A DNA stretch of 30,926 nucleotides, taken from IMG/VR virus record IMGVR_UViG_3300047352_000079, positions 1-30,926 of that record. One strand, 5' to 3'. Shown one piece after another: positions 1-12,638 of this stretch. Source of the stretch: a virus. Within the stretch, counting starts at the first letter, position 1. Each line of letters starts with the position of its first letter. The notes under the pieces are model-generated. The model did not search any database and was not told the origin of the DNA. It was given only the letters and a program-made list of their open reading frames with translations. The position numbers were made by a program, and so were the translations under genes.

Positions 1-1088
1 GCATCGTAACCAGTGCCTCCATTAGTAACTGCATCTACAGTATATCCACCAGCACCATCAGTGGTGATGGTAAATTCTGCATCTACCCCACTGCCACCAC
101 TTACCGTACCTGTTACGCCAGTAAAGGTCGCCGCACCAGTAGATGTGCCTGAGTTTACGATTACTGTAGAAACAGGGTTGTTGTTTTCAAAAGGATTCCA
201 AAATTCTGCGGAAAGTTGTGTGCTTTGCCCTAGAACATGTCTTTCAAAGCTAACACCCGCATTTGTTGTGCCAGTTAAAGAAAAAACCCCGTCTGTAGAC
301 CCATCAAGAGTGTCGCCACCTATAGACGCTACTGTAATCACCAAATCGTTTGCAGGCGTTAAACCACCTAACTGTGTACCTAATATTGTTATGGTGTCGC
401 TTACTGCGTAATCAACTCCAAGATCAGTAACAGTAACTACATAGGTACCCGAAGAGTTTACTACAGTAAATGTAGCCCCTGTTCCCGAACCACTTGTAGA
501 ATCTTGTGTGACCCCTGAATATGTTCCGGCTGTAACAACTGGAGTTCCTGACACTGTGGTTGTGAGTATCCCTGATGTTGTTGCTGTGGCAGAAGTGGTG
601 ATTTCATAGTTGTCTGCATCAATAACACGAGAGATTTGATGTTCTTTGTTTAATACCGCAGAGGTAATATTTCCACCAAGACTTTCGGCATTGGAAAAAG
701 TAACATAGTCAAACTGTGCCGCACCGTGTCCTGCATCTGTGACTGTAACCACAGAACTTTTGTGCGTTGCAGAAAAACTAACGGCTCCGTTTGCACTAGT
801 TGTTCTACGCACAGGTGTGATGTCGTTAAGGTTGCCGCCCTCTTCAATGTAGTATTTTAGATGGGAGCCGATGCCTAGATAGTTCGCGCCATCTAGTGCA
901 ATCCAGTTATGTAAAGCACGAGCCGTGCCTAGATAGGTGCTACTGGTGTACTTCTCCCACCCACCTATCTTTTCAGGAAAGCCAAACCGAAAGCGTATTT
1001 TATCGCAATCACGCCAGCCACCTTCATTAGAATACGAAGTGACTTCTCTGTTTATACCGGGTTTAAATTGTAATTTGGTAAGCGGCAT
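1..1088 (-). CDS. gp10-like short-tail structural protein, 3' end beyond the window
   Basis: The reading frame is open from an ATG at 1088 to the left edge (362 complete codons, no stop), so the C-terminus is missing. The protein begins MPLTKLQFKPGINREVTSYS and continues with GGWRDCDKIRFRFGFPEKIGGW. This opening is typical of podoviral tail proteins related to P22 gp10, which plugs and stabilises the packaged DNA at the head-tail junction; that assignment is from memory of the family. The first 95 residues look conserved. After about residue 175 the protein turns into Thr/Ser/Gly/Val-rich beta repeats: one unit contains GTGATFTVVNSSGTYVVTVT, and a second, similar unit with DAEFTITTDGAGGYTVDAVT lies next to the window edge. 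The start follows the stop of the 339-aa fibre gene by 1 nt. It is the distal gene seen of the late block. Gp10-like identity is fairly likely; exact role is inferred. Confidence 0.72.
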   Translation of the reverse strand, partial: MPLTKLQFKPGINREVTSYSNEGGWRDCDKIRFRFGFPEKIGGWEKYTSSTYLGTARALHNWIALDGANYLGIGSHLKYYIEEGGNLNDITPVRRTTSANGAVSFSATHKSSVVTVTDAGHGAAQFDYVTFSNAESLGGNITSAVLNKEHQISRVIDADNYEITTSATATTSGILTTTVSGTPVVTAGTYSGVTQDSTSGSGTGATFTVVNSSGTYVVTVTDLGVDYAVSDTITILGTQLGGLTPANDLVITVASIGGDTLDGSTDGVFSLTGTTNAGVSFERHVLGQSTQLSAEFWNPFENNNPVSTVIVNSGTSTGAATFTGVTGTVSGGSGVDAEFTITTDGAGGYTVDAVTNGGTGYD

Positions 1089-1089
1089 T

Positions 1090-2109
1090 TTACACCCCTG
1101 TCACTGAGCCATTTGTGGCTCCACCTGTTAAGGTGTCTAAAATACTGCTTCTACGGCTGTTACTTGTAGTCAAGCTAGTTGAAAGCCATCCCGGTTGAGA
1201 ATAAACGGTGGCTCCTGAGTCCATGTCAGTGGCCTTGGCGTTAGAAGCAAACCAAAAGTGACGCTGACCATTAATGACCCTAGAGCCAAAGGCTAAATCT
1301 CTAGCATCTCTGCCAAAATAAGTGTAAATAGTGTTTATAACATATGTTGATGTATCGCTAATGTTTAACGCGCCAGAGCCATCTAAAGGAAAAATGGATG
1401 AAATATTATATGACCCTGAACCTCTATTACTGTAATCAAGTTCGTTGTATGTCCAGCTTGCAGTGAACGTGTTACCAGAGCGCGTAAGTTTACAGTTAAA
1501 GCCAACGCCATAATCACTGTGATAAATGTCAGGGGCTGAAGCGCCGCCAAAACCACCTACAAAATTCATCTGTGCAGAGCCGTTGCCAGAGAAGGTGGAG
1601 TTAAACCCTTCACTGGTTGAACCTGTCACAGACCCATTATTTGTAACAGCGACAGTTTGAGAACTTAAATTGTTTATAGCATATGCGCCTGTGGAAGTAA
1701 TTGTACCGTTATTAGTTATAGTTAGTGTACCCGCCGCACCAGAAGGATATTTAATTGCGTCTGTTCCAACGCTACTAGAAACGGTTATGCTAGCATTTAC
1801 AACAATTCTTTTTGGGTAGTTAACGGTGTAGTCAGAACCAAATATAGTAGACGCATCTTGGTCTGTGTCATTAGAAGAAAATGTTTTTTGAAAAGCTCTC
1901 TCTTGAGAGTGAAAGTTACCCAAGGAAAACGCACCACTTGTCGGCACATTTGCAGATAAATTAACAGCGTTGCTGTTTCCAGCTAACGAGCGTACCAGAC
2001 TACCACCTCTGTAGTAGTCCGCCATAGATATAGCGGTGTTACTACCAGTATTGTACTCCGTTCTGAGGTCGCCAAAACTGATAGGATTTCCAGATGCTGG
2101 TAGAGCCAT
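1090..2109 (-). CDS. Fibre/structural protein, 339 aa
   Basis: The N-terminus MALPASGNPISFGDLRTEYN followed by ISMADYYRGG is a recurrent anchor in phage virion proteins, where a short GDL-type motif precedes a variable beta-rich region. Residues from about 75 onward are rich in Ser, Thr, Asn and Gly, with no enzyme motif. A segment around residues 125-165 (TLTITNNGTITSTGAYAINN) resembles beta-helix or beta-solenoid repeats in which NNG corners recur. The gene overlaps the upstream fibre gene by 1 nt and is followed 1 nt later by the gp10-like gene. I infer an accessory fibre or receptor-binding protein; no specific ligand can be named. Confidence 0.72.
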   Translation of the reverse strand: MALPASGNPISFGDLRTEYNTGSNTAISMADYYRGGSLVRSLAGNSNAVNLSANVPTSGAFSLGNFHSQERAFQKTFSSNDTDQDASTIFGSDYTVNYPKRIVVNASITVSSSVGTDAIKYPSGAAGTLTITNNGTITSTGAYAINNLSSQTVAVTNNGSVTGSTSEGFNSTFSGNGSAQMNFVGGFGGASAPDIYHSDYGVGFNCKLTRSGNTFTASWTYNELDYSNRGSGSYNISSIFPLDGSGALNISDTSTYVINTIYTYFGRDARDLAFGSRVINGQRHFWFASNAKATDMDSGATVYSQPGWLSTSLTTSNSRRSSILDTLTGGATNGSVTGV

Positions 2110-2747
2110 TAAGGTGTTCCATAAGCCGTAATATTATCAGAGGCGACAACCGCGCCTGTGTTAGATAGTTTAAATACCGTAGTCCCATTATACTTGAACC
2201 GAAGATCATTACTCCCTGGAGCAAGTTCAATTTCCCATTTACTAGAACCAAACAAAATTGCGTTTCCGTTTGTATCTAAGTCACCGCCCAACTGCGGAGT
2301 TGTGTCGTTCACAAGGTCAGTGGGGGCAGCAAGAGTGCTAGTGAAATCTGATACCTGTGCACCCGCACCTGCGCCATCCGCATAAATAATAGAGGTGTCG
2401 CCATTGTTTACAGTTGCTATGCCGCCCGTGCCTTGCCTAAATTCAACTTGCTGACCAGAGTTGTTCTGCACAAAATATAGCTTCTCCTGGTCATTGGGGC
2501 TAATGGTAATAAGGGTTGTACCTGTTGGCGCACCGCCTAAAACCAACACTTTATAATGCCCGTCAGAAGGCTGCCCATCGGTGGTGGTCAGGGTGTGGCT
2601 AGTTCCCGCAAGTGTTATTGCACCAACACCGCCAGCAACACGGTCAATAATATCAAAGTTTGTATTTACAGTCGCACCCCAAGCACCCGCCTGTTCACCT
2701 GAACCGGGCTTTTGTATGCCTGAGTTTGAAGTATATGTACTTGCCAT
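2109..2747 (-). CDS. Tail fibre-like protein, 212 aa
   Basis: The opening (SNSGIQKPGSGEQAGAWGAT, then NTNFDIIDR) is a widespread phage fibre anchor of the form S..GI.....GEQ.G.WG...NTNFD. The middle (about residues 40-125) is beta-rich with a PNDQEKLYFVQN motif and the metal- or turn-like IYADGAGAGAQV. The end (about 150-212) resembles the shaft-to-tip region of fibres, with TTPQLGGDLDTNGN. It starts at 2747, immediately after the stop of the preceding fibre gene. Virion role is likely. Whether it is a shaft or an adhesive tip cannot be decided by eye. Confidence 0.75.
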   Translation of the reverse strand: MASTYTSNSGIQKPGSGEQAGAWGATVNTNFDIIDRVAGGVGAITLAGTSHTLTTTDGQPSDGHYKVLVLGGAPTGTTLITISPNDQEKLYFVQNNSGQQVEFRQGTGGIATVNNGDTSIIYADGAGAGAQVSDFTSTLAAPTDLVNDTTPQLGGDLDTNGNAILFGSSKWEIELAPGSNDLRFKYNGTTVFKLSNTGAVVASDNITAYGTP

Positions 2748-3470
2748 TTAGACCACCTTCTCAATCCACTGCTCTATTGTACCACCAGCGTTGATTTGTG
2801 TCCATGTATCACCGCTATGTGTAATAGGCGTCCAGTTTTCTACGCCGCCTGTTGCCGCGTTTATATTTACCCAAAGCAGTTCGCCAAAAGTGCTCTGTAC
2901 GAATAGATGTACCATATCAGATTCTGCTGGAACAATTAAGCCACCAAGACTAGATTGGTCAAACTGCGAAATCTGCGTTGAGTTACCACTAAAGATAACA
3001 CTAAGTATGGTATCCCCCTGCTCGAAGCTGGCATCCATTTCTGCCGCACCACCCGCTAATTTATTAGCTAGTGCAGACTGTATGGTCGTGAAGTCCTGCT
3101 CTGATACACCACCTAGAACCGCTACGCCGTCAGAGACTTGTGTGAAACTGAAGTCCTGGTTTGACGCACCCTTTAGTATGGCTTGCGGTGTTGTTGTCTG
3201 TGTGGTGTTGATTACCTGTGCAGATATCCCCGTAGCAAAGCGGGTAAGGTCAGAGCTTAGTACAAAGTCCGTGGAGCTTTCAACAAGACCCACGAGAATG
3301 CCAACACCAACCGAGGTCTTAGTAGCAATGGCGGACATTTCTGCCCCGCCATCCGCCACCAATGTAGCGGTGTTTACTGCCTGAAAGTTTGCATCAGACG
3401 TAGACGTGCCGAACGCAATGATACCGTGCGCCGCTATAGCTCTTTCAGATAATGCAAACTCACCGAACAT
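2748..3470 (-). CDS. Fibre/structural protein with internal repeats, 240 aa
   Basis: The N-terminus MFGEFALSERAIAAHG matches a short anchor (FG.FA..E) seen in many phage virion proteins. The interior carries degenerate repeats in which GGAEM or GASNQ/GVSEQ-type turns recur: GGAEMSA near residue 42, GASNQDF near 105, GVSEQDF near 121 and GGAAEMDA near 140. The C-terminus (VENWTPITHSGDTWTQINAG) is a Trp-containing tail common at the ends of such proteins. It overlaps the 195-aa fibre gene by 1 nt. Function beyond an external structural protein is not visible. Confidence 0.68.
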   Translation of the reverse strand: MFGEFALSERAIAAHGIIAFGTSTSDANFQAVNTATLVADGGAEMSAIATKTSVGVGILVGLVESSTDFVLSSDLTRFATGISAQVINTTQTTTPQAILKGASNQDFSFTQVSDGVAVLGGVSEQDFTTIQSALANKLAGGAAEMDASFEQGDTILSVIFSGNSTQISQFDQSSLGGLIVPAESDMVHLFVQSTFGELLWVNINAATGGVENWTPITHSGDTWTQINAGGTIEQWIEKVV

Positions 3471-4057
3471 TAGCCAGCAATCTCCATTAAAACAAACGCG
3501 CTTCCTGATGCTATGCTATCGCTCCCTGAATCGTTTTCAGCGCGATTCCATGCCATAAACTCATTATTGCTAGAAGCCAATTTAGGAGTTCCTCTATTCC
3601 CGGAACTAACAGTCCCTTGGATACCCCCACCTTTAATAGAGTAGGTGATTGCAGATGTTGTTGCGGGGTTATCAAGATACTGAAAACTAATTGCATTAGG
3701 GCTGTAAGCATTGTCACTATATTGCCCTGTCCCCAAAAACCCAACAGCATTCATTGTTGTGTCTGTGCTATTTCCAATAACTGTAGAATCTCTTAAAAGC
3801 CAGAAGCAAACGTCATTGTTGTTACCAAAATGAAACATCCCATAAAACATTACTAAGATTTTACTGGACGTTGAAGAAGGGGTTATTGTAGCGGTAGCGG
3901 GGCAAGCAATAGCGTCGCCATTGGCTGAAGTTGTAGTCTTCGACTGAGTATCAGACCAACCTTGGACAACCTGCAACACCGTACCACTAGACAGCTTAGA
4001 AGACGGCACTGTGGTGCTTGTTCCCATTAAGTCAGCAAGTGTTCTAGCATTACTCAT
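3470..4057 (-). CDS. Fibre head protein of the SGTVLQVVQ family, 195 aa
   Basis: This is one of three paralogues in the window, with 4937-5494 and 10121-10666. All share SGTVLQV(V) near the N-terminus, a TITPSSTSSKILV-type strand, RDST, a FxxLDxPATxSxITY segment and a C-terminal MEIAG or MEIGG. The preceding residues, TLADLMGTSTTVPSSKLSSG, look like the trimerising NA-K-L type anchor of fibre proteins. This family is common in marine and enteric phage fibre clusters, and its fold is probably a beta-sandwich head (inference). The gene lies between the chaperone-like gene and a repeat-containing fibre gene, with gaps of a few bases. Confidence 0.75.
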   Translation of the reverse strand: MSNARTLADLMGTSTTVPSSKLSSGTVLQVVQGWSDTQSKTTTSANGDAIACPATATITPSSTSSKILVMFYGMFHFGNNNDVCFWLLRDSTVIGNSTDTTMNAVGFLGTGQYSDNAYSPNAISFQYLDNPATTSAITYSIKGGGIQGTVSSGNRGTPKLASSNNEFMAWNRAENDSGSDSIASGSAFVLMEIAG

Positions 4058-4060
4058 AGC

Positions 4061-4453
4061 TTACTCCGGCTTTACAGGCCACACTACATCGTCCAGTGAG
4101 GTGTATGTGTTAGTGATGTCTCGCAGTGCCTGACGATAGGCAGTACGTTCTGCGGTCATAGTAAGGTCAGACGATGCCCACCAATCTGTGTCTGCAATAC
4201 GCTTGTTGCGCTCCTCGCGCAGTAGCTTCATAGGCTCCGCTGCGTTAAGCTCGGCTAACTTATCTTCAACCGCGTTCCATGTAACGCCCTGCCAATCGTC
4301 ATCTTCGCTAGACTCGATAGCCGTACCGTTGTCATCTACGCCAACAACCACAGAGAACATAGTGTTAAACTCATAGGCATCGGCTGGCTCACCGCGTAGA
4401 ACCCACTGAAGGTCTGGATTTAATGCTGATATTGCGTCTGATACTGTTGCCAT
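4061..4453 (-). CDS. Tail fibre assembly chaperone-like protein, 130 aa
   Basis: The C-terminal third contains LREERNKRIADTDWWASSDL followed by ERTAYRQALRDIT, matching the R-x-x-R-x-x-x-L-x-x-(S/T)DW motif and YRQALRD segment of phage tail-assembly chaperone proteins. In those families the protein helps a fibre fold or oligomerise and is usually encoded beside its client. The N-terminal part (about residues 1-75) is acidic and not distinctive (NPDLQWVLRG, then VVVGVDDNG). It sits inside the fibre array, flanked by a C1q-like fibre and an SGTVLQVVQ-type fibre, either of which could be its client. The family is assigned with fair confidence; the client is unknown. Confidence 0.75.
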   Translation of the reverse strand: MATVSDAISALNPDLQWVLRGEPADAYEFNTMFSVVVGVDDNGTAIESSEDDDWQGVTWNAVEDKLAELNAAEPMKLLREERNKRIADTDWWASSDLTMTAERTAYRQALRDITNTYTSLDDVVWPVKPE

Positions 4454-4457
4454 GATT

Positions 4458-4940
4458 TTAACCTATTTTAACCATTGACCAATGCCCAACGGTAGTATTG
4501 TCAGAGGCACCGTATATTTCCATAGAGCCTTGTGCCTTAAATTCCACTGTATCAGAGGCAGAAAGGCTCCAAGCAAAACAACCCGCCACTGTAGACCAAG
4601 CCTCTCCAGTTCCAGCGGCGGCATAACCCGCCCTAAACTGTTTTGTGCCATTATAAAAAAACTCTATGCCATTAGTTGCAGAAGATATTACAGAAAGAGA
4701 AATCAAATATACACCTGCCACAGAAACTGTGCAAACACCGCTTGATTCAGTGATTCCGTTGGATTCTGCCAACCTCCAGTCCACTATTGTTGCGCCAGCA
4801 GAATAAGTCGCCTGTGCGTTTCTTAACAAAGTTATGTATTGAAGTTGGCTTGTTGAAATAATACCACTGCTATCAATCGTGAGCGCGGCGTTCGAGTTCG
4901 TTGGGTCTTGAATCTCGGAGACTTTTAATATGCTGGTCAT
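4458..4940 (-). CDS. Fibre protein with C1q/TNF-like head, 160 aa
   Basis: Residues 1-30 (MTSILKVSEIQDPTNSNAAL, then TIDSSGII) form the same short anchor seen in the 194-aa neighbour. From about residue 52 the sequence reads like a C1q/TNF-type jelly roll: GVCTVSVAGVYLISLSV at about 68-84, FFYNGTK at 94-100, FAWSLSASDTVEFKA at 122-136 and a terminal HWSMVKIG. C1q-like heads are trimeric binding domains known on several phage fibres. The fold call rests on pattern resemblance and has not been tested. The start overlaps the stop of the 185-aa gene by 4 nt, suggesting translational coupling. Confidence 0.7.
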   Translation of the reverse strand: MTSILKVSEIQDPTNSNAALTIDSSGIISTSQLQYITLLRNAQATYSAGATIVDWRLAESNGITESSGVCTVSVAGVYLISLSVISSATNGIEFFYNGTKQFRAGYAAAGTGEAWSTVAGCFAWSLSASDTVEFKAQGSMEIYGASDNTTVGHWSMVKIG

Positions 4941-5494
4941 CCGCCTATCTCCATTAATGTAAGTGTAGACAAGGGGATAGAATCATACCCAGATGTTCCA
5001 CCATCTTGAAAAGCGGCAGACCTATTTAAATACCAAGTTACAGTGCCGTATGCGGCAATTTGTATTTTATATGTAATCTGACTTGCAGTAGCAGGCTCGT
5101 CTAAAAAAGATATGCCTTGCGGAAGAACGTGGTATTGCCCGTAACTAGAATAAGCATTGTAAGAGTTTGAAACGGCTGAAGCAACTCCTCTAGTGCCTTC
5201 TTGAGTTCCCAATCCTACGGGAGTGGAATCTCTCACGATTCTGGATTTTGTCTGATAACCAGTGGCACTGTTGCCTAAAAAAACTTCATATTTTATCAAA
5301 ATTTTTGAAGAAGAGCTTGAGGGCGTAATGTTTGCTTGTAGTCCACTATCCGCAAAAACATTAGTTCCAGCACCTGTAACCCCTGAAGTGGTTGTGCCAA
5401 TTGTATCCTGAACCACCTGTAACACATGACCCGGAATCTCAATCCCGTTGCCGCTGGTCTTCTCGTTTATTGTATCTACATATAATGTTGACAT
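4937..5494 (-). CDS. Fibre head protein of the SGTVLQVVQ family, 185 aa
   Basis: A paralogue of the proteins at 3470-4057 and 10121-10666. Here the anchor is MSTLYVDTINEKTSGNGIEI, followed by PGHVLQVVQD in place of SGTVLQV. The head carries NITPSSSSSKILIKYE, RDSTPVG, ISFLDEPATASQITYK and a C-terminal LMEIGG, all in the same order as its relatives. The different N-terminus on a conserved head suggests exchange of anchors and heads. It is followed by a 4-nt overlap with the C1q-like fibre gene. Function as a receptor-binding or accessory fibre is inferred. Confidence 0.74.
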   Translation of the reverse strand: MSTLYVDTINEKTSGNGIEIPGHVLQVVQDTIGTTTSGVTGAGTNVFADSGLQANITPSSSSSKILIKYEVFLGNSATGYQTKSRIVRDSTPVGLGTQEGTRGVASAVSNSYNAYSSYGQYHVLPQGISFLDEPATASQITYKIQIAAYGTVTWYLNRSAAFQDGGTSGYDSIPLSTLTLMEIGG

Positions 5495-5502
5495 TATTTA
5501 AC

Positions 5503-6087
5503 CTATGCGTACATAATTCTAATAGTGCCAGAATCGAAAGTTCCAGCAGTAGGAAAGAATCGTATTCTGTCTAACTCGCCAGACAATTCCTTGTACCCCA
5601 TCATAGTTGCAAAATAGCCGTCATAATTAGTTACAAAAATTCTAGCTTCCATTATCCACTTGTTACTTCCAGCGTGAAATAATTCACCCTTGAAGTAAAA
5701 ATCACTACTGGTGTTAGTCCACCCATAGTTTCTCCAAGAATCGCTACTTACAGAACTACCGCCAGTAACAAATGAATTTGTTCCATAATGAGACTGTCTA
5801 GCATAGCCAGTGGTTTCAAATCCCCCGCTATCGCCTATTCGAATGTCAATAGTTGCTGTTGCAGAAAAAGAAAGCCCCCAGCAAGTGAATTTAACTACCT
5901 CTACGCCACTTGGTATTCCTGTAAAATCAACCGTGCTACTGCCACTTGCGGATTGTGCGCTAACAGCAGTAAGAACTCCCGGAGCCGATGGACTTGTGTT
6001 AAAAGACACAACACCAGCACTATCAATCGTCATAGCAGACGTCCCCGCCGCATTTCGTATCTGGTCTACATTTATTATCGAAGCCAT
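5503..6087 (-). CDS. Fibre protein with VDFTGIPSG-type head, 194 aa
   Basis: The anchor MASIINVDQIRNAAGTSAMT, then IDSAGVV, matches the anchor of the C1q-like gene (V.xI......A.TIDS.G). The head begins at about residue 50 with STVDFTGIPSGVEVVKFTCW and continues with DIRIGDSGGFETTGY. This arrangement is frequent in fibre proteins of marine phages, though its ligand is not known to me. The Trp/Tyr/Phe-rich C-terminal half (SWRNYGWTNTSSDFYFKGEL) suggests a compact beta domain. It is separated by 7-8 nt from its neighbours on both sides. Confidence 0.72.
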   Translation of the reverse strand: MASIINVDQIRNAAGTSAMTIDSAGVVSFNTSPSAPGVLTAVSAQSASGSSTVDFTGIPSGVEVVKFTCWGLSFSATATIDIRIGDSGGFETTGYARQSHYGTNSFVTGGSSVSSDSWRNYGWTNTSSDFYFKGELFHAGSNKWIMEARIFVTNYDGYFATMMGYKELSGELDRIRFFPTAGTFDSGTIRIMYA

Positions 6088-6094
6088 GCCTGCC

Positions 6095-6823
6095 TCACAG
6101 TATTGTCAGATTACCGTTTACGGTAATGCTGGTTGAAGTATCAATCGTCAGCGGCCCTATTGCCAATGCATTCTTAGTCGAGCCTATCGTGGTGTTCTGG
6201 TCTACCGTCTGGTCATTCGTGCGGAACACCGCCGTATCTACCGTGGTATTGGTTGTCTGGAATGACGGCGCGGTTATCTCGCCTGCAAACGTACCACCAG
6301 AAGCCTTACTTACTGTATCAGTTACGGTAAATGCACGATAGGCTCTAATGACAAGTTCGTCATTTAGTGCAGCCGCAGAAGCTAAAGTAATCGTATCACC
6401 GTTGCTGGCAGTAAAGTCTGATGTGTCCAGATGCACACCATTCAAATATACATCCACATCGTTGCCAGAGAAAGCTAATATAGTGCCTATGTTATCTGCA
6501 CCTGTAAACGCGGTCTGCCCAGCAGTTGCCACATACTTATATAACTGCATCCCGTAGCTGGTTGGCTGGTCAACGGCGCGGCCAAAAAACCTGACTGTAA
6601 TCACATCAGCATTAGCTGGCGCGGCAGAGAAGGTTAGAGTATTGCCTTGGGCGGTATATGCGGCAGAGACGCCCGGCTCTTGCACCACGTTACCGATAGT
6701 CACAATAAGAGCCTCGCCGCTTACAACAGACTGAGCAAGCGTAAAGGCTGTAGTGCTTCCGTCACCTGTAAAGGTCTGAAAGGTGATATCACCTACATTT
6801 GGGTCTATTCCTAGATACGCCAT
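6095..6823 (-). CDS. Fibre protein with two tandem QEPG-type beta domains, 242 aa
   Basis: Residues about 14-85 contain FTGDGSTTAFTLAQSVVSGE, then VVQEPGVSAAYTAQGNTLTF and SAAPANADVITVRFFG. This small beta domain recurs in phage fibres and is also present in the 133-aa protein at 9720-10121. A second, diverged unit follows at about 86-165 (YKYVATAGQTAFTGADN, DVYLNGVHLDTSDFTASNGD, DELVIRAYRAF). The C-terminal part (GEITAPSFQTTNTTVDTAVF onward) looks like a shaft that ends in TVNGNLTIL. It overlaps the 66-aa gene by 1 nt. A structural shaft or adaptor within the fibre apparatus is the best guess. Confidence 0.74.
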   Translation of the reverse strand: MAYLGIDPNVGDITFQTFTGDGSTTAFTLAQSVVSGEALIVTIGNVVQEPGVSAAYTAQGNTLTFSAAPANADVITVRFFGRAVDQPTSYGMQLYKYVATAGQTAFTGADNIGTILAFSGNDVDVYLNGVHLDTSDFTASNGDTITLASAAALNDELVIRAYRAFTVTDTVSKASGGTFAGEITAPSFQTTNTTVDTAVFRTNDQTVDQNTTIGSTKNALAIGPLTIDTSTSITVNGNLTIL

Positions 6824-7023
6824 TAGTCTGCGTCCTGTATTGTGAAGCTGTCATCAGCATCATCGTGTTTAGCTTTGATAGCGGCATAGTGGCGGTTGCT
6901 TGTGTCAAGGGGGACGAACAATGTTTCACCATCAATGACTGCTTCAATGTGTATATTGCTGTTAAGAACAGTAGTGCCATCAGCGTCATATTCATTTACA
7001 TATTGTGCGCTAGTAATTTTCAT
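6823..7023 (-). CDS. Small fibre-cluster protein, 66 aa
   Basis: A short acidic protein with the motif FVPLDTSNRHYAAIKAK at about residues 36-52. A V-P-x-D-x-x-N-R-H-Y motif recurs in small proteins beside phage tail-fibre genes, where it may be an accessory or chaperone-type protein; no role has been proven to my knowledge. No signal peptide or membrane segment is visible. The start falls directly after the stop of the 334-aa fibre gene, and its own stop overlaps the next start. The conserved motif and tight packing argue that it is a real gene. Confidence 0.68.
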   Translation of the reverse strand: MKITSAQYVNEYDADGTTVLNSNIHIEAVIDGETLFVPLDTSNRHYAAIKAKHDDADDSFTIQDAD

Positions 7024-8028
7024 CTATAACTCCGCATCTGCTGTCCAAGAAAAGAAACAACTTTCAATGTCACTACCGCTAAATGAGTGTATAATGCCAT
7101 CAATATTAGCACCAACATTTCCAACGACTGACCCACTAGAGCCAGCAGTTTTTGTCTGTGTTACCGTAGGGCTAGCCCTCTTTTGAACCATAAAGTGATT
7201 TGTCTGTCTTTGTATTTGTGCGCCAGAACTACCATTCATAAAGTAAACAGAATCTGCGTAAGTCTTTTCATAATACCTCTGACACCTAGCCAACTCATCT
7301 GCATAGCTACGATGCTCAAAATCTGTCGCTGTATCGCCTACTTCAAGTTTTACGCCTGTGATTTGCCATGTCGCACTATTGGTTGCTACAACATCCGTTG
7401 CATTACTTCCCGCAATATCATTGTTAGCCGCCCAAGCATTTGCTGTTGACTTAAAGTCAGCCCCAGCACCTACGCTAAAGGTTGTTGTAATTCCAGCACC
7501 ATTTGTCGTTAAATAAGTGCCAGATGTATCGCCAGCAAATGTTATGGTTTTTCTTTCCCAAGTGTTTGCAGAGTTAATTGTGTACTCAAAAGGATAAGTT
7601 CTGTTGTATCCATTACTGTTTCTAATTGCACCACCAAAAGTCCCTGTTAAAGATGACTTTACATAGAAAGACAAAGTTGCTGTCTTAGCGTTAGCTGTTC
7701 CATAAAGTAAATGTGCGCCTGTATATCCTTCTAGCTGTTGCTGAATAAGAAAGTAATCACTAGAAACAGGGGTGTAAGCAGAAAGGCTAGTAAGTTTTAC
7801 TGAGTTTTGAAAACCAACAGGAGCATCCGTTACTTGTTGGGCAGAAAACTTTGACGCTTGGCTTAAAGAACATTTCCATCTGTCTGCACTAAACTGACCA
7901 TTGGTAGGTGTTATGCTTGAGCCACCATTTCTTTGATCAATAGCAAAGTTACCATTGATGATAAGATTCTTACCCGGTCCCAAAACATCGGTAGTCACAG
8001 AGTTTGTTTGTATCTTGCTTATTGGCAT
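7024..8028 (-). CDS. Tail fibre with carbohydrate-binding-like domain, 334 aa
   Basis: After a short anchor (MPISKIQTNSV), residues from about 19 read GPGKNLIINGNFAIDQRNGG. This NLIINGNF-type opening is followed by DRWK, LSFYVKSSLTGTFGGAIRNS, WERKTITFAGDTSGTY and ITGVKLEVGD, then FEHRSYADELARCQRYYEK at about 237-255. This order is characteristic of phage fibre proteins carrying a beta-sandwich domain similar to carbohydrate-binding modules; its usual role is host-surface recognition. About 80 residues after RYYEK are probably a separate tip. An AGGAGA ribosome-binding site sits upstream of the ATG. It follows the oxygenase-like gene by 9 nt and is the longest fibre in this part of the array, making it a prime candidate for the main receptor-binding protein. 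Confidence 0.8.
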   Translation of the reverse strand: MPISKIQTNSVTTDVLGPGKNLIINGNFAIDQRNGGSSITPTNGQFSADRWKCSLSQASKFSAQQVTDAPVGFQNSVKLTSLSAYTPVSSDYFLIQQQLEGYTGAHLLYGTANAKTATLSFYVKSSLTGTFGGAIRNSNGYNRTYPFEYTINSANTWERKTITFAGDTSGTYLTTNGAGITTTFSVGAGADFKSTANAWAANNDIAGSNATDVVATNSATWQITGVKLEVGDTATDFEHRSYADELARCQRYYEKTYADSVYFMNGSSGAQIQRQTNHFMVQKRASPTVTQTKTAGSSGSVVGNVGANIDGIIHSFSGSDIESCFFSWTADAEL

Positions 8029-8037
8029 TACGTTCTC

Positions 8038-8700
8038 CTACCACTTTCCTAGCGGACAAGATGCCGAACCTATTCTTACTTTGAAAGGCATAAAGCAGTT
8101 ACATTCTTGACACATACTCAATGAAGTAAATCTTTCGCAGTCTTTGCATATGTCAATTCTGCTAATTGCGTTCAAATCTGCCTCTTGTGTTTCATTATAG
8201 ACCAAATCAAAGTTTAAGCTAACCCGTGTATTTTCACCTGCGTTTTGATTTGGTTTATGTTCTGCAAAAAACGGGAATAACAAAAGGTCGCCGCTTGTCA
8301 CTGCTAGTGACTCTTCGTTGCCACCGTCATCTCTAAAAGATATAGAGTCGCCTTCGTTTGTTTGAAGGTAGGCCACAGCACCGCAGCCAGCGGTCATGTG
8401 TGTGTGATATGGATTATCTATAGAGGAGTCATTTGTTTGATATGAAGCCCAGCAGTCAGATATAGAAAAAGAAGAGTCAAATGCTTCTTGTGCCGCAGAT
8501 AGCACGGCTTCAGAAATGCCATTGTTATGCTCAATCAAAAATTCATACCCCGCGCCAGACTCTGATTCTGTTCTAAAATTTCCAGAACCCGGCTCAATAG
8601 AAGAGAACTTTTCTGTGACAAATGAAATCGCCTTGTTGACTTTGCTGTCATCAAGTCGAAACTTCAAAACCCTATAACTTGCTATATTTAATTCTTCCAT
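8038..8700 (-). CDS. 2OG-Fe(II) oxygenase-like protein with C-terminal Cys cluster, 220 aa
   Basis: The central part resembles phage 2-oxoglutarate/Fe(II)-dependent dioxygenases. NPYHTHMTAG (His 99 and 101) leads into a GAVAYLQTNEGDSISFRD strand, then GDLLLFPFFAEHKPNQN (His 148) and TRVSLNFDL (Arg 159, a candidate 2-oxoglutarate ligand). After about residue 180 comes a Cys cluster, C185, C188, C197, C200, C202 and C215, ending ASCPLGKW. This resembles a small Cys-rich domain found as a stand-alone protein in other phages, and probably binds zinc. The ATG at 8700 is preferred over an in-frame GTG at 8712 because it overlaps the upstream stop as TAATG. Its position inside the fibre array suggests a virion protein or a fibre-modifying enzyme; the substrate is unknown. 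Confidence 0.72.
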   Translation of the reverse strand: MEELNIASYRVLKFRLDDSKVNKAISFVTEKFSSIEPGSGNFRTESESGAGYEFLIEHNNGISEAVLSAAQEAFDSSFSISDCWASYQTNDSSIDNPYHTHMTAGCGAVAYLQTNEGDSISFRDDGGNEESLAVTSGDLLLFPFFAEHKPNQNAGENTRVSLNFDLVYNETQEADLNAISRIDICKDCERFTSLSMCQECNCFMPFKVRIGSASCPLGKW

Positions 8701-9365
8701 TACGCCACCCACAAATTATTAATAGCCAGTGTAAAACTTCCCGCACAAGCCGTCCATGTAGTAAAACAGACTGAGGAGGTTATGTCTGCATATGCCTCAT
8801 GGGTAAAATTTCCAGTTGCGGCTCCATAAGTATAGGCACCCGTACAGACCACTATTTGGGTTGTGTTTCCTGTTATTACATTAATGTTGGAAAGTCCCGA
8901 ACCAAGATAGCCACAATAACCATTGTTGCTGGAAACAGTAACATTGTATCTTGTTTTTGTAAGACCCCAAGCAGACTGAAATGATGAGCTTACATTTACC
9001 TTTGATTGATAAGTCGCGCCGGGACAGCCATACACCGCACCTTGGTCTTGAGACTGCCCAGAACATGAATTAGAATTATACCCGATTGCCCCTGTAGAGT
9101 TGCCAGAAAGGCCGTTTCTTCTCCCGCTTGTGGAAAAAGCAGAAGAATATGTCCCTACTGTGGTTTGCGCTCTAGTCCAAGCAAGTCCGTACTCCATCAA
9201 AACGTAATAATCAAAAGTTGAGCCACTAGAATCTACAAAACTGTAAACACCACTTGTCGCGCCTTTATTAGCGTCAAGTATGTCCTTTGGCTTAGAGTAA
9301 AGTTCCCTTTGCCTAAATACAGAGCCAGCTATTGCAGGCGTTTTTAGGGTTTTTGGGTTACGCAC
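8700..9365 (-). CDS. Cys-containing fibre protein, possibly fibrinogen-like, 221 aa
   Basis: Residues about 36-70 (KGATSGVYSFVDSSGSTFDY, then YVLMEYGLAWTRAQ) recall the start of fibrinogen-related domains, in which GVY...G....V.C.M...GGWT is usual. The conserved Cys of that motif is absent here. Several Cys residues occur later (SNSCSGQSQ, VYGCPGATY, NGYCGYLG, VVCTGAY, SSVCFTTW, TACAGSF), unusual for a fibre array that is otherwise almost Cys-free. They could make disulphides or bind metal. The ATG directly follows the stop of the 121-aa gene with 1 nt shared. Adhesin identity is inferred from location and composition; the fibrinogen-like call is tentative. Confidence 0.62.
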   Translation of the reverse strand: MRNPKTLKTPAIAGSVFRQRELYSKPKDILDANKGATSGVYSFVDSSGSTFDYYVLMEYGLAWTRAQTTVGTYSSAFSTSGRRNGLSGNSTGAIGYNSNSCSGQSQDQGAVYGCPGATYQSKVNVSSSFQSAWGLTKTRYNVTVSSNNGYCGYLGSGLSNINVITGNTTQIVVCTGAYTYGAATGNFTHEAYADITSSVCFTTWTACAGSFTLAINNLWVA

Positions 9366-9718
9366 TAGGAAATTTCCTCGTATGAAACAATCGCCTCAAG
9401 GTCACTAGCGGCAGAGGCGGTAAGCCTTAAATCGTCACCTTCTTCTAAATATATAGCTTTTGTAATTACCTCAACTGTATCGTCCGCCAAAACAGTGTAT
9501 CCTTTAGCTATGTGATAAGCAGTGCTTGAACGAAGTATATCAATAGTTATATCCGCATTATTCGTTCCATCAACATTTGATATAATGATGCTGTTTACCT
9601 TAAACACTTTTCCGCTTGAAGCGGCGTTAGACACAATAGCTGTGGCAGATGTGCCTACGGCTTGAACTGCGGTTTTTCCTGTGATTGTTGCTACATTTAC
9701 TATGTTTGGTGCCGCCAT
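9365..9718 (-). CDS. Small beta-rich virion protein, 117 aa
   Basis: The start is placed at the ATG at 9718 because GGAGG lies 6 nt upstream; an in-frame ATG at 9736 would lack such a site and overlap the previous gene. The protein (AAPNIVNVATITGKTAVQAV, KVFKVNSIIISNVDGTNNAD, DDLRLTASAASDLEAIVSYE) is a paralogue of the 109-aa protein at 10666-10995, sharing the V..IIISN, GDDLRLTASAASD and final EEIS/LEIT features. Proteins of this type are common in phage virion clusters and look like single small beta-sandwiches. A decoration or fibre-base role is inferred. Confidence 0.72.
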   Translation of the reverse strand: MAAPNIVNVATITGKTAVQAVGTSATAIVSNAASSGKVFKVNSIIISNVDGTNNADITIDILRSSTAYHIAKGYTVLADDTVEVITKAIYLEEGDDLRLTASAASDLEAIVSYEEIS

Positions 9719-9719
9719 A

Positions 9720-10121
9720 TTATCCTCCGAATACAATAGCCATCGCTATCGCCTTTCCTGTTGTAGCGACTATCGCGCCGTTAGTTGTAACCGCCCCGCT
9801 AAAAGTTCCCGTTGTTGCCGATATTGCGGCATTAGGGTCTAGCTCTAGCCGTGCATTAAACTGTGATAACCCTCTATACACAACATATACGTTGCCAGTT
9901 CCTGATGAGGGCGCGGCATCAAATGTTAAAGTTGTGCCTGTCGCGGTGTAGGACTTGCCTGAACCCGGCTCCTGCTGAACATTGTCAACAAATACCTCTA
10001 GCTCTTCGCTTACGGTTACACTCTTGTTTAGAGTAAACGCAGTTGTAGAGCCATCGCCATTAAAATACTGGCTGGTGGGCATTGTGAGCGTTGTTGCTGG
10101 TTTTTGTCCTACATACGCCAT
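9720..10121 (-). CDS. Small fibre protein with QEPG-type beta domain, 133 aa
   Basis: Residues about 20-90 (YFNGDGSTTAFTLNKSVTVS, VFVDNVQQEPGSGKSYTATG, TTLTFDAAPSSGTGNVYVVY) are the same small beta domain found at the N-terminus of the 242-aa protein at 6095-6823. The C-terminus (about 95-133) is a short Ala/Thr/Gly-rich tail (SATTGTFSGAVTTNGAIVAT) that resembles the shaft entry of longer fibres. The protein may therefore be a truncated or simplified fibre. The start shares 1 nt with the end of the 181-aa gene, and its stop ends 1 nt before the next start codon. Confidence 0.74.
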   Translation of the reverse strand: MAYVGQKPATTLTMPTSQYFNGDGSTTAFTLNKSVTVSEELEVFVDNVQQEPGSGKSYTATGTTLTFDAAPSSGTGNVYVVYRGLSQFNARLELDPNAAISATTGTFSGAVTTNGAIVATTGKAIAMAIVFGG

Positions 10122-10666
10122 TAGCCTGCAATCTCCATGACTGTAAACTGTGAGGTAATATTTGTATCATCAGCGCTATTTCTATGATTAATGCCGCCTG
10201 TTCCGGTGCTAACAAATGCTTGTACTTTGTATGTAATAGAGCTTGCTGTGTCAGGGTCATCTAAAAAGTTTATAGCTAAACTAGCTACAGTCCTATTATC
10301 TAAAGCCGACTCTGAGCTAGGATACCATATTTTGTAAGCATTATAAGTCTTTCCAGAGCCACTACCTATCTCTGTGCTGTCTCTAAAAAGTTTTATACCA
10401 CAATAATTACCACTAGCTCCACTTATACCAATAGACCCTGTAAGTAAAAACTCAGATGTTGCACTTGTCGGAGTTATGGTTATAGATAGTCCAATGTCCT
10501 CTCCAGTTGTGCTAGTTATATCATACTCAGTATTGTCACTAACTGACTTAACCTGCAACACAGTACCACTGGGCAAATCTCCAGCAGTCACCGCCCCACT
10601 AGCTAACTTAGCGTTTGTTACAGCGTTTGAGGCAATTTGATTTGCTCCTATTGTGCTTAATGGCAT
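10121..10666 (-). CDS. Fibre head protein of the SGTVLQV family, 181 aa
   Basis: The third and most upstream paralogue of the family at 3470-4057 and 4937-5494. The anchor MPLSTIGANQIASNAVTNAK, then LASGAV, is the classical N-A-V-T-N-A-K-L heptad anchor of phage fibres. It is followed by LPSGTVLQVKSVSD, ITITPTSATSEFLL, LFRDSTEIGS, AINFLDDPDTASSITYKVQA and a final TVMEIAG. It starts one base before the stop of the 109-aa gene. Retention of three diverged copies in one phage points to alternative or jointly displayed receptor-binding heads; this is inferred. Confidence 0.76.
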   Translation of the reverse strand: MPLSTIGANQIASNAVTNAKLASGAVTAGDLPSGTVLQVKSVSDNTEYDITSTTGEDIGLSITITPTSATSEFLLTGSIGISGASGNYCGIKLFRDSTEIGSGSGKTYNAYKIWYPSSESALDNRTVASLAINFLDDPDTASSITYKVQAFVSTGTGGINHRNSADDTNITSQFTVMEIAG

Positions 10667-10995
10667 TATGTAATCTCCAACACAGATAATGTTACGTCTG
10701 CGGCAGAGGCCTGACTTGCAGTTATTCTCAAGATATCAGAAGCGTTCATAACAATCTTCTGGTCGCCACCGACAGCCACCAAAGACGAGCCAACAGGCAC
10801 AATCGCGTCCTTTACGATATGAACATTGTCTCCGTCATTGTTAATCAACTGAACAGAAACGGTAACTGAAACTGTCAAAATATTGGCAATGTTCAGGCCA
10901 ATGATTGTTGTTTCCGTAGAGGCGGGGCAAGTGTAAACATCGGCATTTGCCGTTCCAACCGCAGTGTCTGTAAATGTCTTAAATGCGTTTGCCAT
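10666..10995 (-). CDS. Small beta-rich virion protein, 109 aa
   Basis: The sequence MANAFKTFTDTAVGTANADV, then YTCPASTETTIIGLNIANI, is typical of small phage virion proteins with a YTxPA.....I.GL...N motif. The C-terminal half (GGDQKIVMNASDILRITASQ, TLSVLEIT) matches the paralogue at 9365-9718. It has no signal peptide or enzyme motif and is likely a single beta-sandwich. It sits 3 nt downstream of the 196-aa fibre gene. Function as a fibre-base or decoration protein is inferred from position. Confidence 0.72.
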   Translation of the reverse strand: MANAFKTFTDTAVGTANADVYTCPASTETTIIGLNIANILTVSVTVSVQLINNDGDNVHIVKDAIVPVGSSLVAVGGDQKIVMNASDILRITASQASAADVTLSVLEIT

Positions 10996-10998
10996 CTC

Positions 10999-11589
10999 TT
11001 ACCCCAATGCAATTGCGAATGCCAAAGCATTCGGGTCTTGCTCTGTTAAGTTTACTGGACTATCGGAAGCGTCATTAAAAATCATCTTCTCAGCAGGCAT
11101 TGTACAGAATATTGTACGAGTACCTGCGGTCCAGTTTATCTTCTCGTCACCAATTGTTAAGGCGGTGTCGTCCGCTAGTGTGACGGCTGTGTCTAACACA
11201 ATACTTGTCTGGCTGTTTACAGTAGCTACTTTAACCACTCCTGTAATTCCAGTGCCTCTGACGCGCTGACCTACTGTCAACGTACCGCCCTGCACATTAT
11301 CCACAGTCACTGAGGTAGAAGCAGATACCGCACCGTTTACATCGGCTGTAATCTTTGTGCTGCTGCTCTCAAAGATAGTGTCTCTGGATAAGGTGGTGCC
11401 AGACAAGGTATATGTGCCTAAACCAACCTCAAAGTCCGTACCGTCAGAACATGCGTAATAGGTGGTGTTGCCATCACCTATTGTTGAAAACGCATCAAAC
11501 GAAGTACCAACAGCACCAGCCAGTGTATATGTGCCAGTGCCCGTGGTAGTGCTTGTTTCTTTAATACGGTCTTTGATAACCAGTGCCAT
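10999..11589 (-). CDS. Fibre protein of the KDRIKETSTTTGTGT family with inserted module, 196 aa
   Basis: The N-terminal 78 residues (KDRIKETSTTTGTGTYTLAG, FSTIGDGNTTYYACSDGTDF, TTLSRDTIFESSST) and the segment from residue 150 (KINWTAGTRTIFCTMPAEKM) together match one conserved phage virion protein. In the usual form, DT.L.SSN...K.NFSAGTKDVFCTYPAEK is continuous. In this protein it is split by about 68 residues (81-148) that are homologous to two modules in the upstream gene. The inserted module starts TADVNGAVSASTSVTVDN and ends in VLDTAVTLADDTALTIGD. It overlaps its upstream neighbour by 1 nt. It is a virion surface or fibre protein with high likelihood; the insert is discussed in the findings. 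Confidence 0.77.
   Translation of the reverse strand: MALVIKDRIKETSTTTGTGTYTLAGAVGTSFDAFSTIGDGNTTYYACSDGTDFEVGLGTYTLSGTTLSRDTIFESSSTKITADVNGAVSASTSVTVDNVQGGTLTVGQRVRGTGITGVVKVATVNSQTSIVLDTAVTLADDTALTIGDEKINWTAGTRTIFCTMPAEKMIFNDASDSPVNLTEQDPNALAFAIALG
11146..11349 (-). repeat. Fibre insertion module, copy 3
   Basis: Residues 81-148 of the 196-aa protein. The copy begins with TADVNGAVSASTSVTV and ends with IVLDTAVTLADD plus a short tail. It interrupts a conserved domain between SSSTK and EKINWTAG. At the DNA level, the end encoding TADVNG shares the run CCGTTTACATCGGC, read on the plus strand, with copy 1. Confidence 0.75.
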
Positions 11590-12638
11590 TACTTCAACTC
11601 AACACTCAAGTTAGTTGCGTTAATACGGAAAATGTCGCCCGTAGCGATTGTCTTGCTTGCGTCCAGCGCACCAATAAACAGGATATTAGACCCGTCAAAG
11701 GTTAGCTTTGTGTCATCTGCAATAGTTACAGCAGTGTCCAGAACAATCGCGTTCTGCGAAGTTACTGTAGCTACACGAACAATCCCTGATGCGCCTGTGT
11801 TAAGAACCACATCACCCACAGCAATAGTTCCAACATTACCGTCAAGAGCTACGCTTGTAGAGGAACTAACCGCACCATTTACATCGGCTGTTGCAATGTT
11901 TGCGTCAGCAATGAAAGCATGTGTCACAGTGTAACTTGCAATGCCGCTTGATGCTGAATACTCGATGTTGTCATCGTTCTTAATCAACTGCTGGTCAGAA
12001 ATCACTGTGTCAGAAATGCTATGTGATGCGGCGGTTGTGCTTGACGCGCCACGAGTACAGCCTGTCAAAGTATTTGTACCATCAAAAGATAGAGCAACGT
12101 CGTCAGCCACCGTAACCGCAGTATCCAATACAATGGCAGTCTGTGATGTCACAGTAGCCACACGAACCGTACCAGAGATGCCTGTGCCTGTTACAACCAT
12201 GCCAACAGTAATTGTGCCGCTGTTACCGTCCACAGTTACGTTGGTAGAGGATGAAACAGAACCGTTTACATCGGCAGTAGCAGAGCCGTCCTTGCCTGTG
12301 AAGGTGATGATTTCGTCATTGATTGTCACTGTGCCTGAAGAAGGGAAAGCTTCCCCGTCTGTCAAAATCAGTTCTGTGTCAGCAGACCCCGCCGCTACAG
12401 CCAGTGTGGTAACAGATTGTTTCCAATTTGCTGCCGTTACTTGCTGACGAGTATAGTTAGCGTCTTCTGAGCTAACAGATACTTCTGTTAAATTACCTTT
12501 TTCAGCATTACCTACAGCGGTAGCCAAACCAACATAAATGCTGTTGCCGGGTGAAGCAAAGGAAAGAGAATCATTCTTGAACAGATAATCCAAGATGCGT
12601 CTTTCCAGATATGTGGTTGCCGCGTTACTTGTTGCCAT
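11589..12638 (-). CDS. Fibre/tail structural protein with two inserted modules, 349 aa
   Basis: Residues 1-75 (MATSNAATTYLERRILDYLF, SIYVGLATA, EDANYTRQQVTAANWKQ) and the pieces at 234-247 (ASYTVTHAFIADAN) and 317-349 (SNILFIGALDASKTIATGDI, FRINATNLSVEL) are the parts of one common phage tail protein, normally near 110-130 aa. Between them lie a ..TINDEIITFTGKDG...TLTGCTRGASSTTAASH unit (about 100-210) and two homologous modules at 120-187 and 249-316. The protein is thus about three times its usual size, by nested in-frame insertions. It follows the adaptor gene by 11 nt and opens the fibre array. A tail-attached surface protein is likely. Confidence 0.76.
   Translation of the reverse strand: MATSNAATTYLERRILDYLFKNDSLSFASPGNSIYVGLATAVGNAEKGNLTEVSVSSEDANYTRQQVTAANWKQSVTTLAVAAGSADTELILTDGEAFPSSGTVTINDEIITFTGKDGSATADVNGSVSSSTNVTVDGNSGTITVGMVVTGTGISGTVRVATVTSQTAIVLDTAVTVADDVALSFDGTNTLTGCTRGASSTTAASHSISDTVISDQQLIKNDDNIEYSASSGIASYTVTHAFIADANIATADVNGAVSSSTSVALDGNVGTIAVGDVVLNTGASGIVRVATVTSQNAIVLDTAVTIADDTKLTFDGSNILFIGALDASKTIATGDIFRINATNLSVELK
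11691..11894 (-). repeat. Fibre insertion module, copy 2
   Basis: Residues 249-316 of the 349-aa protein: IATADVNGAVSSSTSVALDG through IVLDTAVTIADD and KLTFDGSN. It separates the two halves of a conserved C-terminal motif (VTHAFIADA and NILFIGALDASKT). It is clearly homologous to copy 1 over its whole length, but the codons have diverged, so the duplication is not very recent. Confidence 0.75.
12078..12281 (-). repeat. Fibre insertion module, copy 1
   Basis: Residues 120-187 of the 349-aa protein: TADVNGSVSSSTNVTVDGNS, TVGMVVTGTGISGTVRVATV and IVLDTAVTVADDVALSFDG. It is located between ITFTGKDGS and NTLTGCTRGAS, a pair that is normally contiguous in related phage proteins. It is predicted to be a small all-beta module. 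Confidence 0.75.

Follow-up and report, generated by a model that had tools for sequence, protein, structure and literature searches.

The window analysed here is a 30,926-nucleotide stretch of DNA from a marine bacteriophage (IMG/VR record IMGVR_UViG_3300047352_000079), in which a single minus-strand gene (8038-8700) encodes a 2OG-Fe(II) oxygenase domain of the PF13759/phrog_81 type fused to a six-cysteine domain of the phrog_13558, DUF6171-like type. The open reading frame starts with an ATG at 8700, ends with a TAG at 8040-8038 and specifies 220 amino acids. The oxygenase domain covers residues 1-170 (8191-8700, minus strand), with H99, H101, H148 and R159 as its predicted catalytic residues, and the Cys domain covers residues 180-220 (8041-8163, minus strand), with C185, C188, C197, C200, C202 and C215, an invariant K207 and a terminal CP..KW. 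All residue numbers from H99 to C215 are exactly as described in an earlier note on this DNA, which named no strand. Pfam searches matched the protein to PF13759 (2OG-FeII_Oxy_5; E 1.8e-6, 28.7 bits, above the 27-bit cut-off) and residues 180-220 to PF19668 (DUF6171; E 2e-5, 25.3 bits, slightly below the 27-bit cut-off); PF13640, the prolyl 4-hydroxylase type, gave no match up to E 10. Of two homologues, P0003 scored 35.2 bits with PF13759 and matched PF13640 only below the cut-off, and P0002 scored 24.3 bits with PF13759 and 30.1 bits, above the cut-off, with PF19668. In PHROGs, residues 3-176 matched phrog_81, annotated as '2OG-Fe(II) oxygenase' (E 1.7e-14), and residues 165-220 matched positions 11-68 of the 69 in the phrog_13558 profile (E 1.5e-14), a family of separate 69-aa proteins whose function is unannotated. 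Two independent profile libraries agree on this division, and the phrog_13558 match bears out the proposal that the C-terminal cluster is a domain encoded elsewhere as a phage protein of its own.

The textbook metal motif of 2OG oxygenases is HxD/E...H. The earlier note held that the His and Arg residues fit the catalytic arrangement; the residues were confirmed, with the correction that they form HxH...H, the usual version in PF13759, and not HxD/E...H. When 18 phage 2OG proteins are aligned, H99 and H148 do not vary, position 101 is His in the PF13759 type and Asp, Glu or another residue in the prolyl-hydroxylase type, and R159 corresponds to Arg in all PF13759-type proteins except one. The four residues of the fusion align with those of the PF13759-type phage proteins, giving the motif HxH...H...R. 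A direct search of the PDB with the fusion protein returned a chance match only. A profile of PF13759-type phage proteins, which matches the window family with an hhalign E of 1.9e-11, found the crystal structures 3bvc (E 1.9e-15) and 2rg4 (E 2.7e-14), both carrying HIH...H...R in the same register as that profile; by alignment, the His and Arg residues of the fusion thus appear equivalent to those of the solved structures.

The interpretation in the earlier note stood or fell with a double-stranded beta-helix, or jelly-roll, core, and this core is present in the AF2 model, built on 42 rows including 39 Cys-domain rows (mean pLDDT 83.6; an earlier three-row model was poor, with a pLDDT of 55.6). 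The predicted fold superimposes on 2rg4_A with a Z of 18.0 and an rmsd of 2.3 over 156 aligned residues, and matches 3bvc with a Foldseek E of 3.9e-8. These two structures, of the PF13759/TIGR02466 type, and the phage family phrog_81 share with the fusion the HMM match, the HxH...H...R motif and the double-stranded beta-helix; 3bvc and 2rg4 differ from it in having no C-terminal six-Cys domain (their matches stop at model residue 169), and both were deposited as uncharacterised proteins. Prolyl hydroxylases come next (Z 15-17), followed by AlkB (Z about 15), and the closest characterised folds include the protein hydroxylases PHD2, Pseudomonas putida P4H with EF-Tu and an algal P4H. These enzymes and PBCV-1 vCPH share the fold of the fusion and act on protein residues, but they carry HxD where the fusion has HxH. 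Since AlkB folds also match at a Z of about 15, the fold alone cannot identify the substrate.

At least 120 viral stretches matched a DNA pattern that combined an Arg-Val/Ile-Ser motif with the Cys domain following it, and most of the matches listed encode the Cys domain alone. Small proteins of phrog_13558/PF19668, such as SWUG_00021 of Synechococcus phage S-RIM2, share with the fusion the arrangement C..C-x8-C..C.C-x12-CP..KW and the equivalent of K207; these separate proteins of about 50-110 aa are encoded beside 2OG genes in many phages, whereas in the window the two are fused. Among the matches listed, 14 of 64 clusters of stand-alone Cys-domain genes have a 2OG gene as immediate neighbour on the same strand, as against 24 of the 741 other genes in those loci (odds ratio 8.4, p 2e-7); 2OG genes were detected from simple ORF calls by screening for homology and motif. 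The pattern searched for might have favoured a 2OG gene just upstream, yet most of the 2OG genes found lie downstream. In the cultured S-RIM2, SWUG_00021 overlaps the 2OG gene SWUG_00022, next to the fibre gene SWUG_00023, which resembles the fibre of a contig described below (L027). Separate neighbouring Cys-domain and 2OG genes also occur in the cultured phages S-SSM7 and Sf-FS3, and in S-H35, likewise cultured, a 2OG gene lies just upstream. In another contig (L042:3705-8401), three Gly-rich fibre-tip genes are interspersed with three genes for phrog_4998 companions, each of which ends in the six-Cys domain. The domain is also found away from both fibres and 2OG genes, in Stenotrophomonas phage IME-SM1 and in S-CBS1; it is therefore not specific to fibres, and a docking role can be put forward only as a hypothesis. 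A count of stem-type fibre motifs beside Cys-domain genes yielded two cases only and was set aside.

The search for the fusion in other genomes proposed in the earlier note brought up two further cases, the IMG/VR contigs L062 and L027, the only pattern matches listed that encode the full fusion. Their proteins, of 229 and 236 aa, are 44% and 42% identical to that of the window, and the four catalytic residues and six Cys are invariant in both, the conservation of the Cys being partly imposed by the search pattern. L062 is T4-like (Gp23 capsid, E 3.8e-140). L027 also encodes a tryptophan halogenase, a carbamoyltransferase and further 2OG genes; its region 4092-9122, with fibre-adjacent 2OG oxygenases beside these two enzymes, recalls S-SRM01, where halogenase, adhesin and Cys-domain genes lie side by side. 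Two other loci, L139 and L140, which a second pattern brought up as apparent fusions, were rejected, both containing short stand-alone Cys-domain ORFs. No fused relative was detected among 50,697 phage records or in a single scan of bacterial and archaeal genome contigs. With the window protein as sole query, viral contigs yielded no relative, and relatives emerged only through the Cys-domain DNA pattern. The 80 closest relatives of one of the window's structural genes, many of them short, had no fusion homologue, detected 2OG gene or Cys domain. Fusion-specific exact-pattern scans, which miss variants, matched L027 and L062 only, which indicates that the fusion is rare.

Directly upstream of the fusion lies a fibre-tip gene (8700-9365, minus strand; GTG start, 221 aa), whose TAA stop shares one base with the ATG of the fusion (TAATG). 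A homologous fibre-tip gene occupies this position at all three fused loci (L062:2340-3161 and L027:952-1761 in the other two); stop and start likewise share one base in L027, and in L062 they abut. The three fibre tips have in common a CGYL motif and a TWTAC(S/A)G C-terminus. When viral contigs were searched with the fibre alignment, nothing came back but these three phages and L144, a near-identical counterpart of the window that breaks off after the first 43 residues of the gene; this contig supports the view that the junction of array and fibre in the window is not an assembly artefact. The fibre tips also match the N-terminal part of intelectin/fibrinogen-like lectins weakly (intelectin E 0.0017 with the profile and 1.7e-4 with the protein of L027, antibody chains marking the noise level at E 0.005), so that an animal-lectin-like domain may be present on a phage fibre. 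The fibre array itself is real, as the neighbours at 7024-8028 (minus strand; phrog_4492, E 2.3e-51), 6095-6823, 9720-10121 and 10121-10666 all match tail-fibre PHROGs. Across positions 3-12638 of the window, short fibre genes follow one another in a long series and have N-terminal modules in common, which suggests repeated duplication; 6095-6823 and 9720-10121 both match phrog_18673.

The behaviour of this pair of genes can be followed in L157, a relative of the window with 86% identity in a structural gene. Its flanks are conserved, with homologues of 9365-9727, 7024-8028, 6823-7023 and 6095-6823. The small array gene at 9365-9727 (minus strand; phrog_1276) borders the exchanged segment on the left and is 57% identical to L157:3562-3930, and the downstream tail-fibre gene at 7024-8028 borders it on the right and is 49% identical to L157:5707-6759. 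Between them, L157:3933-5720 replaces window 8038-9365 with a Gly-rich fibre tip, an 84-aa gene and a 283-aa phrog_7084 protein. Fibre tip and oxygenase thus behave as a single fibre cassette that can be exchanged whole, and this speaks against incidental metabolic cargo.

The window phage may be of the HTVC023P pelagiphage type: its TerL protein is 54-61% identical to those of HTVC027P, 023Pt_psg01 and HTVC023P, but also 59% identical to that of the freshwater phage DSL-LC04. Several 2OG oxygenases are encoded amid the fibre and tail genes of HTVC023P, HTVC027P and 023Pt_psg01, in the same region as in the window, and some of them are also of the PF13759 type. These differ from the window protein in having no Cys domain and only remote similarity to it, the nearest being HTVC023P gp71 (E 8.7e-8). 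The 2OG genes gp72-74 of HTVC027P lie on the strand opposite to the neighbouring tail genes, so not every 2OG gene of such arrays is coupled to a fibre gene. Eight non-orthologous 2OG oxygenases in HTVC023P-type phages have been classed as auxiliary metabolic genes (PMC9599517), 24 were found in one cyanophage, their function not being investigated (PMC9602691), and phage 2OG oxygenases have been proposed to affect 2OG/NtcA signalling (Sullivan et al. 2010, PMC3037559). In the fibre regions of pelagiphages and cyanophages, these enzymes are common and published as auxiliary metabolic genes. Two genes, L005:29302-29922 (HTVC023P gp67) and L146:11044-11631, are annotated as 'ferrochelatase', and neither has a Pfam match; the HxD...H pattern of gp67 recalls 2OG oxygenases, and the annotation may be wrong, in which case the published story of a ferrochelatase-oxygenase partnership would change.

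The position of the fusion in the fibre array is beyond chance, given the same upstream fibre gene at all three fused loci; the location as such is not new. Of the earlier interpretation, the oxygenase fold and motif, the Cys domain with separate counterparts and the non-chance fibre position hold; 2OG oxygenases in fibre regions cannot count as new, such enzymes having been published. What is new is the fusion architecture, as distinct from the oxygenase family and the fibre-array location, and the linkage of the fusion gene to the fibre tip is unusually tight. The claim that fibre hydroxylation had not been described is consistent with, and not proven by, a search of the open-access literature, to which most subscription journals do not belong; it turned up nothing on DUF6171 or on phage fibres that are hydroxylated.

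Our preferred explanation, to which we give a little less than an even chance, is that the fusion accompanies its cognate fibre tip, onto which the Cys domain would dock the oxygenase so that the tip can be modified. The rarity of the fusion and its constant position after one kind of fibre gene suggest that it chemically modifies the fibre. The protein is probably translationally coupled to the fibre tip encoded at 8700-9365. From its residues, the oxygenase domain is predicted to be catalytic, binding Fe(II) via H99/H101/H148 and 2-oxoglutarate via R159, and would hydroxylate or otherwise oxidise a side chain of that fibre tip. The C-terminal domain, probably zinc-binding to judge from the pattern of its six Cys, would serve as the dock through which the oxygenase reaches the fibre; elsewhere, both parts are found as separate genes side by side, and a different fibre companion can carry the Cys domain. 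What ties enzyme to fibre is gene adjacency, at the three fused loci only. This linkage puts the fibre tip ahead of any other single candidate as the substrate, with a probability just short of one half, and favours hydroxylation of a fibre protein as a plausible activity, with the tip as putative substrate.

The foremost alternative, which we regard as unlikely, is the published reading of phage 2OG oxygenases (PMC3037559, PMC9599517, PMC9602691), namely that the protein is an auxiliary metabolic enzyme acting on a host metabolite, or consuming 2-oxoglutarate and thereby shifting nitrogen signalling, in an array that accumulates cargo genes. This leaves unexplained why three phages share the upstream fibre tip with touching stop and start, why the gene is swapped as a unit with that tip, and why a Cys domain is fused to it; moreover, NtcA signalling is a cyanobacterial argument, whereas the window phage seems to resemble pelagiphages. 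Rather less probable still is a structural companion of the fibre, a chaperone or adaptor using its jelly-roll and Cys domains for binding, with catalysis dispensable. The different protein (phrog_7084) that follows the fibre at the equivalent place in L157, and the small non-oxygenase companions that carry the Cys domain in L042, would suit such a role, but the retention of H99, H101, H148 and R159 in three homologues at 42-44% identity fits an active enzyme. The earlier note had also offered host surface glycans as a target. A virion-borne enzyme modifying such glycans or receptors during adsorption would be in keeping with the fibre array and with the possible, weakly matched intelectin-like glycan-binding domain of the upstream tip, but is improbable, as it would need Fe(II) and 2-oxoglutarate outside the cell, and sea water hardly supplies either. 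An AlkB-like nucleic-acid oxygenase with a zinc finger is the most improbable reading, for despite the closeness of the AlkB fold and the DNA repair proposed elsewhere for phage 2OG enzymes (PMC9146016), sequence and fold are both matched best by PF13759 proteins, not AlkB, and the gene sits among fibre genes, not DNA genes.

Taken more broadly, a self-docking phage oxygenase may post-translationally modify the tip of its own fibre, with tip and enzyme forming a swappable cassette present in one podovirus-like and one T4-like phage, the Cys domain serving as docking module, and other modifying enzymes (a halogenase, a carbamoyltransferase and further 2OG oxygenases) present in some such arrays. 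This wider picture is tentative, and we consider it somewhat less likely than not. A single marine phage can carry as many as two dozen 2OG oxygenases, and these are classed as auxiliary metabolic genes. In at least one case, the fused domain and the constant fibre-gene partner point to a specific candidate protein substrate, and a vague metabolic label may thus give way to a directly testable idea: that phages enzymatically modify their own receptor-binding proteins.
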